Below are positions 7,454-32,387 of a stretch of 64,000 nucleotides of DNA, piece after piece. This stretch comes from Ditibartonella apihabitans (GTDB taxonomy: Bacteria > Pseudomonadota > Alphaproteobacteria > Rhizobiales > Rhizobiaceae): positions 2,172,501-2,236,500 of the forward strand of contig NZ_CP015820.1 in the NCBI RefSeq assembly GCF_002007485.1, given 5' to 3'. The first letter of the stretch is position 1, and each line of letters begins with the position of its first letter. The notes beneath the pieces were generated by a model. The model worked only from the letters and a program-made list of their open reading frames with translations, did no database searches and was not told the DNA's origin. The translations under genes were made by a program, and so were the position numbers.

Positions 7454-7900
7454 TTCGGTTCTCCTTAGGAAACCTTTCGGGTTCCCCAAATCTTGCTTCT
7501 CGTGACATAAGTCACGATCAGCCCATGGACAAAGTGCAAGGCCTATATTCGTTTCAACCGGTTATTGGAGGTACCGGAAAAAACTCCATAAAACTTGCGG
7601 CGATGGAACAGCGCGCTAACGCATTGCTCCGCTTTGTCTGCCTTTTGATTGGAATAACGAAAACCGCATCCGCACGGAAGGCAATGAGGTGTGCCTCTTC
7701 AGTAATTTCGACTTTTGGACAGCCGAAAGACACCAGAAAGGCCCGCACCGTCGTTGCTTCAAGATGTCCCCATTCTTCCGGTTGGCCGTAAGAATGACTG
7801 GAGCGGTTAGGTCCAGGTACCGTACCGGTTTTTCTCACCATTCGAGGACCGGCGGACACCCACAGGCACGTGCGACTTTGGGCAAAGATGCATATAAGCG
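7454..7900 (-). ncRNA. Candidate speF-type leader RNA of the decarboxylase gene
   Basis: About 450 nt separate the decarboxylase start from the divergent LysR region. A conserved speF RNA motif is known upstream of ornithine decarboxylase genes in Alphaproteobacteria. Visible structure includes a hairpin CGTGAC/GTCACG at 7501-7516 and a 7-bp stem GGGAACC/GGTTTCC at 7468-7486 just before the Shine-Dalgarno. An 11-codon AUG frame (7589 down to 7554) ends in PVPPITG, a proline-rich run that could slow ribosomes. Assignment to the motif rests on position and length; I cannot align it here. Confidence 0.4.
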
Positions 7901-25892: not shown

Positions 25893-26078
25893 CTCTGTCT
25901 TGAGCCTGAGAGACTTGTGGAAAGCTCTCCCCTCCACTTACACCTTCGGCGCGGGACAAACCCGACTTTCCAGAGCTGTCTTGATCTTTTTACGGTTCCT
26001 TGTGCCTGAGAGATTACGGGCTGTTTTCCCCTTCGGCGGCCAAAACACGGTTGACTGTATTTTTACACTCTCCCGCAA
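25893..26078 (-). ncRNA. Tandem glycine riboswitch controlling gcvTHP
   Basis: On the minus strand two aptamers follow each other. Aptamer I (about 26078-26000) has GGGAGAG, the GCCGAAGGGG core and the closing CTCTCAGGCAC. Aptamer II (about 25980-25893) has GCGCCGAAGG and CTCTCAGGCTC. These are the conserved P1/P3 elements of the glycine riboswitch, and tandem arrangement is the common form. It should switch on gcvT-H-P when glycine is abundant. Confidence 0.93.
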
Positions 26079-26170
26079 AAAGATGGGAAAGGGCTCTATT
26101 GACCCCTCCCTGACATGGCACCGGTTCTAGCCGATCTTCAAAGTGAAGTCATCCTCAAAAAATCATTTCC

Positions 26171-30591: not shown

Positions 30592-31032
30592 AACCGGCTT
30601 TCCTGACCGGATTGATGAATGGACTATCTTTTAAGAAAACTTGGCCGGATTAACGCCGGTCAAGTTGAAATACTGCTCGAAAACATTCATCAATTTTGTT
30701 CTTTGAATAAAGATAAAACCTGTAAAGTGCTGGGAAACCACCACGTTTAAACCGTTTTTCAATAGCTTCATTAGTTTTAGATATTCAGAACCGGTTTCAT
30801 CAGCCTTGAACTTTCAAAAATTTTTGCCGCTCACTGCTCTTCTTTTTATTGCTTGAAATTCAAGCTTTCTTGATGAGCAAATCATCGTCTCAAACTCTGA
30901 TAAAATGACCGATTTGTCTTATGTAACCTGCTAAACCAAAAAGAATTCAACATGAAAAATAACCGATTATTATTGTGTTTCTTGACAGAGGTTGAAAATA
31001 AGCTAAAACCAATGCGATCAAGGAGTTTAAAA
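30592..31032. other. Intergenic region after leuB, likely holding the asd promoter
   Basis: AT-rich. A weak CCGG hairpin follows leuB. An in-frame ATG at 30952 could extend the small frame described at 31033 but lacks a Shine-Dalgarno. No other gene seen. Confidence 0.35.
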
Positions 31033-31149
31033 ATGGACTTTTTGCGGTTCCATATCAATCGGTTTTCGGGCTACAATCGCGGCCTCGATCACTGCTGTGC
31101 ATCCTTGACAATTATTGGCCACAAAAAAACGACAAAGAAAATTATCTGA
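31033..31149 (+). CDS. Putative leader peptide of asd, Lys/Thr/Ile-rich end
   Basis: 38-codon frame preceded by AAGGAG at 8-bp spacing. The body is nondescript, but the last 14 residues read LTIIGHKKTTKKII, with 11 being Thr, Ile or Lys. The products of the pathway through Asd are Lys, Thr, Ile and Met. A 7-bp perfect stem (31115-31121 with 31157-31163) encloses exactly the KKTTKKII codons and stop. This resembles the thr-operon leader in logic. No homologue is known to me; the assignment is inference from composition, position and RNA pairing. Confidence 0.5.
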   Translation: MDFLRFHINRFSGYNRGLDHCCASLTIIGHKKTTKKII

Positions 31150-31250
31150 CGTCCCTTGGCCAACCTGCTCTCTCCCGGGTGCGGCCCGGGGGGTAAGCCT
31201 GACGGCCGCCGGGCTTCTTCACAAAACACGGAGAGAGACAGGAGTTCTGA
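31115..31250 (+). promoter_or_regulatory. Structured asd leader, candidate attenuator
   Basis: After the control-codon stem the RNA has an 8-bp stem CTCTCTCC (31168-31175) with GGAGAGAG (31230-31237). Inside it, two mutually exclusive stems are possible: GCCCGG/CCGGGC (31184-31189 with 31209-31214) or GCGGCC/GGCCGC (31181-31186 with 31204-31209). The outer stem ends just before the asd Shine-Dalgarno (CAGGAG). The block is far more GC-rich than its surroundings. It matches no riboswitch class I recognise. Confidence 0.45.
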
Positions 31251-31254
31251 TTAA

Positions 31255-32289
31255 ATGGGTTTTAAGGTTGCTGTTGTAGGTGCTACGGGAAACGTTGGAC
31301 GAGAAATGCTCAACATTCTCGAAGAGCGTGGTTTTCCGGCTGATGAAGTTGTACCACTCGCCTCGCATCGGTCATTGGGAACAGAAGTTTCCTTTGGTGA
31401 CAAAACACTGAAGGTCAAAGTTCTTGATAATTACGATTTTTCCGACACCGATATTTGTCTGATGTCTGCCGGTGGCAATGTTTCCAAAGAATGGGCGCCA
31501 AAAATTGGCGCGGCCGGCGCTGTCGTTATCGATAATTCTTCGGCCTGGCGTTATGATATTGATGTTCCGCTCATTGTTCCGGAAGTTAATCCTGATGCAA
31601 TCGACGGCTTCAAAACACATAATATCATTGCCAATCCGAACTGTTCGACAGCCCAGCTTCTGGTTGCTCTAAAACCTCTGCACGATGCCGCAACCATCAA
31701 GCGCGTTGTTGTTTCAACCTATCAATCGGTTTCGGGTGCAGGCAAGGCAGGAATGGACGAACTTTTCGAGCAATCGCGCGCAGTTTTTGTGGCAGACCCT
31801 ATTACGGTGCGCAAATTCACCAAGCGTATTGCTTTTAACGTTATTCCCCATATCGACGTATTCATGGAAGACGGCTACACCAAAGAAGAATGGAAAATGG
31901 TTGCCGAAACCAAGAAAATGCTCGACCCGAAAATCAAGCTTACGGCTACCGCCGTTCGTGTTCCGGTTTTCATCGGCCATGGCGAGGCCGTCAATGTCGA
32001 GTTTGAAAAACCCATCAGTGCCGATGAAGCACGCGAAATCCTGCGTAATGCTCCAGGTTGTCAGGTTGTCGACAAGCATGAGGATGGCGGCTATATGACA
32101 CCTTATGAATCAGCCGGCGAAGATGACACCTTTGTCAGCCGTATCCGCGAGGATATCACGGTTGAAAACGGCCTGTCTTTCTGGGTTGTTGCCGATAATT
32201 TGCGCAAAGGTGCAGCGCTTAATGCGGTGCAGATTGCCGAACTTCTGATCGCCCGCAATCTGATTACACCCAAAAAAGCCAAAGCATAA
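31255..32289 (+). CDS. asd: Aspartate-semialdehyde dehydrogenase
   Basis: NADPH-dependent reductase of aspartyl phosphate, 344 aa, the branch enzyme for Lys/DAP, Thr, Met and Ile. Motifs: VAVVGATGNVGREML, the SAGGNVSKEWAP loop, the catalytic Cys in NPNCSTAQL, and the His in PVFIGHGEAVNVEF. CAGGAG precedes the ATG. It has its own long leader and a strong terminator, so it is a single-gene unit. Confidence 0.95.
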   Translation: MGFKVAVVGATGNVGREMLNILEERGFPADEVVPLASHRSLGTEVSFGDKTLKVKVLDNYDFSDTDICLMSAGGNVSKEWAPKIGAAGAVVIDNSSAWRYDIDVPLIVPEVNPDAIDGFKTHNIIANPNCSTAQLLVALKPLHDAATIKRVVVSTYQSVSGAGKAGMDELFEQSRAVFVADPITVRKFTKRIAFNVIPHIDVFMEDGYTKEEWKMVAETKKMLDPKIKLTATAVRVPVFIGHGEAVNVEFEKPISADEAREILRNAPGCQVVDKHEDGGYMTPYESAGEDDTFVSRIREDITVENGLSFWVVADNLRKGAALNAVQIAELLIARNLITPKKAKA

Positions 32290-32353: not shown

Positions 32354-32387
32354 CCCCTGTCGAGACTTTCTCGCAGGGGTTTTTTTT
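32354..32387 (+). terminator. Rho-independent terminator of asd
   Basis: CCCCTG/CAGGGG plus inner CGAGA/TCTCG stem, followed by eight T. Confidence 0.92.

Follow-up and report, generated by a model that had tools for sequence, protein, structure and literature searches.

A lysine- and threonine-coding leader ORF, a putative attenuator of asd, recurs through much of the Hyphomicrobiales

The stretch of DNA analyzed here, a window of 64,000 nt, carries asd, encoding aspartate-semialdehyde dehydrogenase, on its plus strand at 31255–32289 (identified by Pfam and by NCBIfam NF011456 and TIGR01296), preceded by an AGGAG Shine–Dalgarno sequence at 31240–31244. The product of this enzyme is the last intermediate shared by the routes to lysine, diaminopimelate, threonine, methionine and isoleucine. 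Of the named matches, Bartonella sp. M0177 fits the locus best, with an Asd 99.7% identical, and the Bartonella clade of the window is one that we take to be bee-dwelling. Upstream of asd on the same strand lies a leader ORF of 38 codons (31033–31149, with a TGA stop at 31147–31149), recognized by sequence and conservation, whose tail, LTIIGHKKTTKKII, contains three Thr, four Ile and four Lys, together 11 of 14 residues. An AAGGAG Shine–Dalgarno sequence (31020–31025) is positioned 7 nt from the ATG at 31033. Directly upstream of the leader, a promoter-like element on the plus strand (30982–31009) consists of TTGACA (30982–30987) and TAAAAC (31004–31009) separated by 16 nt, and ends 10 nt 5′ of the leader Shine–Dalgarno sequence. 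TTGACA-16-TAAAA is kept in 12 of 12 distinct close leaders, the window included; the element at 30982–31009 is absent from the output of a general scanner. A longer in-frame alternative starts at 30952, and since this position lies 5′ of a promoter-like element that close leaders keep, 31033 is the likely start and 30952 an unlikely one. The 38-codon frame, its AAGGAG and the 11-of-14 Lys/Thr/Ile tail lie exactly where the original prediction, made from the letters of the window, had placed them. No model of Pfam (two leaders tried) or NCBIfam (three leaders tried) matches the leader peptide.

Within the close Bartonella clade, the frame measures exactly 38 codons at 15 of 15 loci (L001–L007, L031–L036, L049 and L050) and 39 codons in L008, a more distant member, while AGGAG stands 6–8 nt 5′ of the ATG at all 16 clade loci. 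Across 12 distinct sequences (L008 excluded), codons 2–23 show a mean nucleotide identity of 62% (minimum 35%), as against 99% (minimum 92%) for codons 24–38 and the stop. The first part of the predicted ORF is free to change in this clade, and its length, frame and tail are fixed.

The occurrence of such ORFs was then surveyed in 196 asd-upstream regions, reduced to 187 distinct ones by merging those identical over the last 250 nt; the loci came from Bartonella, from named Hyphomicrobiales assemblies and from further genomes hand-picked to spread over families. A K/T-tailed ORF was defined as one that spans 12 codons or more, has 7 or more Lys or Thr among its last 14 residues and stops 55–170 nt 5′ of asd. 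It is present in 116 of 143 other Hyphomicrobiales (122 of 143 when at least 6 Lys or Thr suffice) and in 11 of 13 close-clade regions, that of the window among them (13 of 13 at the lower threshold), and in 0 of the 31 remaining Bartonella. The same search yielded 0 of 187 on the reverse complement and 0 of 145 in sequence further upstream (regions with at least 640 nt). Among the 27 of 143 falling below the K/T criterion, some are clearly without a leader, and in several a K/T tail narrowly misses the threshold or lies beyond the search interval (for example L116, L139, L164, L169 and L192). Other orders of the class gave 4 of 48 under a slightly wider criterion (48 genomes examined among 108 with a match), with 0 of 48 on the reverse complement. 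The distance from leader stop to asd has a median of 107 nt and ranges from 77 to 165 nt, and typical tails read AKTTTKTV in Mesorhizobium, KTTTKTV in Brucella and TTTTTTRKTTA or KTTTIKTTKTTTV in other families. A comparison of asd upstream regions from relatives, in line with the check that had been proposed for the prediction, found frame, position and Thr/Lys tail kept through much of the order. Because the 38-codon length and the AGGAG are fixed despite the divergence of codons 2–23, and because the K/T controls return no match, the putative leader ORF is not a chance feature. Separately, inspection by eye revealed in L030 a very long near-perfect hairpin in the last 140 nt 5′ of asd, replacing the leader after an apparent leuB end.

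The tails point to two amino acids. Of 1624 tail residues in the 116 leaders of other Hyphomicrobiales, 722 (44%) are Thr and 314 (19%) Lys, with only 29 (2%) Ile. The clade of the window has relatively more Lys, plus Ile; elsewhere the signal consists of Thr and Lys. The prediction had named Lys, Thr and Ile as control residues: its Thr and Lys part is borne out by order-wide tails, whereas Ile is a feature of the close clade. Lysine codons are chosen in opposite ways by leader and gene. In 67 non-Bartonella leaders, AAA outnumbers AAG by 185 to 13 (291 to 40 in a wider set), and the asd genes of 70 such non-Bartonella loci reverse this, with 1475 AAG against 65 AAA. No comparable leader-versus-asd inversion was seen for Thr codons. 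Selective-charging theory holds that control codons are those whose tRNA loses most charge on starvation; an alternative reason for AAA would be an A-rich, unstructured tail.

Between the leader stop and asd, the RNA is arranged in the order of a post-stop TTGGCC (B), a pyrimidine strand (C), a middle region (M) containing two hairpins (H1 and H2), a purine strand (I) and the asd Shine–Dalgarno sequence, all on the plus strand; the post-stop stretch is C-rich. Segment A, in the coding tail, offers TTGGCCA (31115–31121) as a perfect 7-bp complement to TGGCCAA (31157–31163), and the intervening loop (31122–31156) contains exactly the KKTTKKII codons and the stop, as the original prediction described; helix A:B (31115–31163) is proposed from sequence and from the cognate test given below. 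The outer helix C:I (31168–31237), supported by covariation, pairs CTCTCTCC (31168–31175) with GGAGAGAG (31230–31237) and ends two nt 5′ of the asd Shine–Dalgarno sequence. Inside it, alignment and covariation suggest H1 (31176–31188), in which CGGG (31176–31179) pairs with CCCG (31185–31188); a CC:GG extension is possible at the cost of C:I. Alignment, folding and covariation likewise suggest H2 (31195–31216), formed by AAGCCUG (31195–31201) and CGGGCUU (31210–31216) and followed by CUUC, a terminator-like hairpin that is weak in the window. An alternative pairing of GCGGCC (31181–31186) with GGCCGC (31204–31209), spanning 31181–31209 and exclusive with both H1 and H2, could also form, judging by complementarity. 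By eye, the last 70 nt 5′ of asd in L094 and L113 contain an extra palindromic stretch between strand I and the asd start.

Pairing between these segments was assessed by comparing cognate with non-cognate combinations in non-overlapping windows, using 74 of 79 leaders (spacer at least 88 nt) less than 80% identical; the rows are related, so the p values are optimistic. A:B was stronger in cognate combinations in 49 of 74 leaders (p = 0.00013, or 0.0038 with other windows), C:M likewise (p = 0.0002) and C:I most distinctly (p = 1.9e-6). No cognate excess appeared for A:C, A:M, A:I, B:C, B:I or M:I in the same 74 leaders and windows, and B:M, the would-be link of the leader stem to the switch region, reached p = 0.15. 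Support for B:M (p = 0.0042) had come from windows in which C and M overlapped, where the C:M value is partly self-pairing, and was discarded when it vanished with non-overlapping windows. Against a null of synonymous codons, A:B was not better than expected (median rank 0.43, with 2 of 55 leaders at rank ≤0.05). Stems of the predicted kind hold up in the cognate test and do not surpass the synonymous null; the data support pairing of the coding tail with the post-stop stretch, that is, such a stem in general. Strand C has two competing predicted partners, M and I. These downstream helices, which the prediction had not listed, have at least as much sequence support as A:B.

The outer helix was further examined in two alignments. 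For the first, L094, L113 and L116 were removed by hand, and 73 loci were reduced to 56 by removal of near-duplicates; the second keeps 35 of these 56 rows, hand-picked for alignability and therefore leaning towards the structure (rows left out include L008, L054, L064, L066, L068, L093, L098, L111, L115, L117, L119, L120, L122, L136 and L170). On the 35 chosen rows, C:I, closing H1 and H2, is paired in 94.2% of cells, and its covariation was reached by 0 of 500 shuffles and was lower when the strands were slid. Over all 56 rows, the pairs of the outer helix persist in 46 to 55 of the 52 to 56 rows that can be read at the respective positions, and RNAalifold predicts only 8 pairs, 5 of them with a double change. 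A covariance model built from the 35 rows found a single match per genome in 15 of 25 Bartonella genomes, each no more than 5 nt from the asd start; under strict filters, neither the other 10 nor 16 genomes from other families gave a match. The model is thus specific, yet narrow in reach, and because of these missing matches the RNA sequence itself is not order-wide. Rfam has no family at gathering score for the asd leader region; a match to ctRNA_pGA1 at 31167–31224 (25.4 bits against a gathering score of 45, E = 0.005) was put down to chance resemblance of a GC-rich hairpin.

The same helix extends to Bartonella without the ORF. In a check of the covariance model on loci outside the close clade (35 chosen loci given in total), 21 loci, none with the ORF, comprised 15 matches at E ≤0.004, 2 weak matches and 4 without a match. 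In 20 distinct sequences of ORF-less Bartonella, C:I is 87.9% paired, and its covariation was reached by 1 of 500 shuffles; in the counts of double changes and of additional pair types, it did not stand out from the shuffles (329 and 493 of 500, respectively). Loss of the threonine pathway was considered as a cause of leader loss and rejected as a general one, since most ORF-less Bartonella keep its genes: of the 29 genomes behind L009–L025 and L037–L048, 24 retain homoserine dehydrogenase and 23 have thrC above the cut-off. Genus-wide, the corresponding numbers are 61 of 71 (the G065 copy having internal stops) and 59 of 71. In the genome of the window, one strand of the two stretches around hom and thrC was searched for ORFs of 12 codons or longer with five or more Lys or Thr among the final 14 residues, and none was present. 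By eye, a promoter-like TTGACA remains in L009–L019 and other Bartonella outside the close clade, and several also have an AAGGAG-like site.

We then asked how a stalled ribosome would affect folding of the nascent RNA, using 48 of the 56 rows with H2 defined per sequence. Masking by the stalled ribosome lowered H2 by more than 0.2 in 10 of 48, raised it in 4 and did neither in 34 (Wilcoxon p = 0.36); mean H2 was 0.51 with the ribosome in mid-leader versus 0.54 with it near the stop (p = 0.36). Compared with no ribosome, a stalled one gave lower H2 in 7 and higher H2 in 6. Mean accessibility of the asd Shine–Dalgarno sequence was unchanged under the mask, in a run with imperfect column registers for some rows. 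Individual leaders behave differently: in the window, H2 is absent with the ribosome at −14 to −4 and is partly present (0.2–0.3) both closer to the stop and when no ribosome is placed, and L006 folds as a textbook attenuator would, whereas its relative L005 does not. As the set as a whole shows no consistent switch, mask folding was set aside as proof of one.

Terminator-like hairpins were confined to part of the order. They occur in 33 of 89 close-group leaders versus 7 in the reverse-complement control, and in 0 of 48 leaders of other families versus 5 in the control (both sets not de-duplicated), so classical intrinsic termination was rejected as an account of the whole family, being unsupported outside the close group. 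In 30 of the 56 aligned rows, the eight positions behind H2 include four or more T. Rho-dependent termination at the C-rich stretch behind the stop was considered as a further candidate. The candidate of the window, CTTCTTCA, has 4 T of 8 and was not reported by the scanner, making its H2 a weak terminator candidate. By eye, a hairpin CCCCTG...CAGGGG followed by eight T lies 3′ of asd at 32354–32387, in contrast to the weak T-run of the leader H2.

We consider it quite likely, mainly on the order-wide counts of K/T ORFs, that the leader acts as a ribosome-mediated attenuator of asd sensing charged Thr- and Lys-tRNA; the cell would probably use it to sense a shortage of either amino acid. Translation would begin with the short ORF. 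If charged Thr-tRNA or Lys-tRNA runs short, the ribosome may stall on the terminal Thr/Lys codons, a step we infer because it best explains a conserved K/T tail before a gene that feeds Thr and Lys synthesis. Stalling would change the RNA pairing between the leader stop and asd and presumably raise asd expression. With both tRNAs plentiful, the ribosome would reach the stop, and a repressing fold would form. How the leader stem couples to the switch region and to the output step is likewise a matter of inference. The output probably lies at the asd ribosome-binding region, where C may pair with the middle region or with the strand adjoining the Shine–Dalgarno sequence; intrinsic termination at H2 may add to this or substitute for it in a group including Mesorhizobium, Brucella and Phyllobacterium. 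Translational control through the helices beside the asd Shine–Dalgarno sequence is the more general candidate. Of the attenuator peptide originally proposed, the frame, the position and the Thr/Lys tail are conserved, and the folding under a ribosome mask gave no consistent switch.

Other explanations fit parts of these data. Regulation could lie in the downstream RNA itself, through binding of a protein or ligand or simply through stabilization of the asd messenger, with the ORF an add-on: the outer helix is retained in Bartonella that lack the K/T ORF, and it adjoins the asd Shine–Dalgarno sequence. Yet no Rfam family matches at gathering score, the single match falling far below its own, and families without any match to the covariance model still have K/T tails, which indicates that the codons outlast the RNA sequence; we hold this explanation to be unlikely. 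Somewhat less probable still is a translational enhancer, in which the leader would deliver ribosomes close to asd for reinitiation without any sensing of amino acids. Reinitiation after leader peptides has been proposed in general (PMC4833913), and an ORF with a good Shine–Dalgarno sequence close to asd would suit it, but the Thr/Lys enrichment, the preference for AAA and a structured-RNA gap of about 107 nt would all go unexplained. That the ORF encodes a small functional protein acting in trans, as reported for peTrpL of S. meliloti (PMC7298713), seems very improbable, given that the close clade diverges in all but the last residues and that Pfam and NCBIfam have no match.

Returning to attenuation, we tentatively propose a fuller reading, which as a whole we hold to be possible and somewhat short of probable. 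The leader would be a two-amino-acid sensor of tRNA charging, conserved in much of the order at the gene where the aspartate family branches; it would read Thr through common codons and Lys chiefly through AAA, which asd itself hardly uses. Control would act mostly at the asd ribosome-binding region instead of through an intrinsic terminator, and, as part of the same joint proposal, the outer RNA helix would have kept a function after ORF loss in other Bartonella.

Known systems resemble this leader in part. E. coli thrL, with Thr and Ile control codons, regulates thrABC and has a strong intrinsic terminator at its end; both leaders are short ORFs with codons for a pathway product (Thr) before a biosynthetic gene, but here the codons are Thr and Lys, the gene is asd, and 48 leaders outside the close group contain no terminator-like hairpin. 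Lysine control of aspartate-family genes is also exerted by the lysine riboswitch, the usual means of lysine sensing; unlike it, the region studied here has no Rfam match above threshold, and lysine would be sensed through charged tRNA. Leader-peptide attenuation is reported in alphaproteobacteria for the trp leader peTrpL (PMC10117765) and the ilvB leader (PMC1273637), of the same type but with other amino acids and genes.

The closest precedent is SEP5 of S. meliloti, which has six Thr and three Lys codons towards its end, lies in the 5′-UTR of an "aspartate dehydrogenase" gene and was suggested to be a possible leader peptide, its translation reported by Ribo-seq and tagged Western blot (PMC10117765). 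Like the leader of the window, it is a short ORF in a 5′-UTR with a cluster of Thr/Lys codons near its end; the gene is probably asd, and SEP5 is apparently the same leader. The original remark that no described asd leader peptide was known in Rhizobiales is to be qualified, and the idea is not wholly new, since SEP5 had already been proposed (PMC10117765). In the part of that report available to us, SEP5 is called conserved only in Sinorhizobium and no RNA structure is described (PMC10117765), whereas here leaders occur through much of the order together with RNA helices. Open-licence literature, judged mostly by titles and the beginnings of abstracts, yielded no further report of an asd leader, and the main text of PMC2965389 and PMC1273637, as far as available, does not mention asd; in PMC4117421, "asd" denotes the anti-Shine–Dalgarno sequence. 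New here are the breadth, the RNA architecture, the inversion of Lys codons and the Bartonella with the helix but without the ORF. Leader-peptide sensing is a known trick, hardly described at asd. If the proposed sensing is correct, many Hyphomicrobiales, including nitrogen-fixing symbionts, would set flux through the aspartate family by reading two charged tRNAs, and lysine would be sensed by a leader peptide instead of a riboswitch. The AAA-for-AAG inversion makes the isoacceptor read by the leader testable, and ORF-less Bartonella offer a natural experiment on the RNA helix acting alone.

Several minor observations concern the surroundings. In three Bartonella genomes, asd is closely followed by an incomplete second copy of its 3′ part (G055:C1:1441950-1442210, G068:C4:27988-28230 and G059:C1:1653742-1653879). 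On the minus strand of the window, a speF leader (RF00518) adjoins an ar45 sRNA (RF02347) at 7580–7883, both above gathering score, and a Glycine riboswitch aptamer (RF00504, 53.7 bits) lies at 25983–26085.
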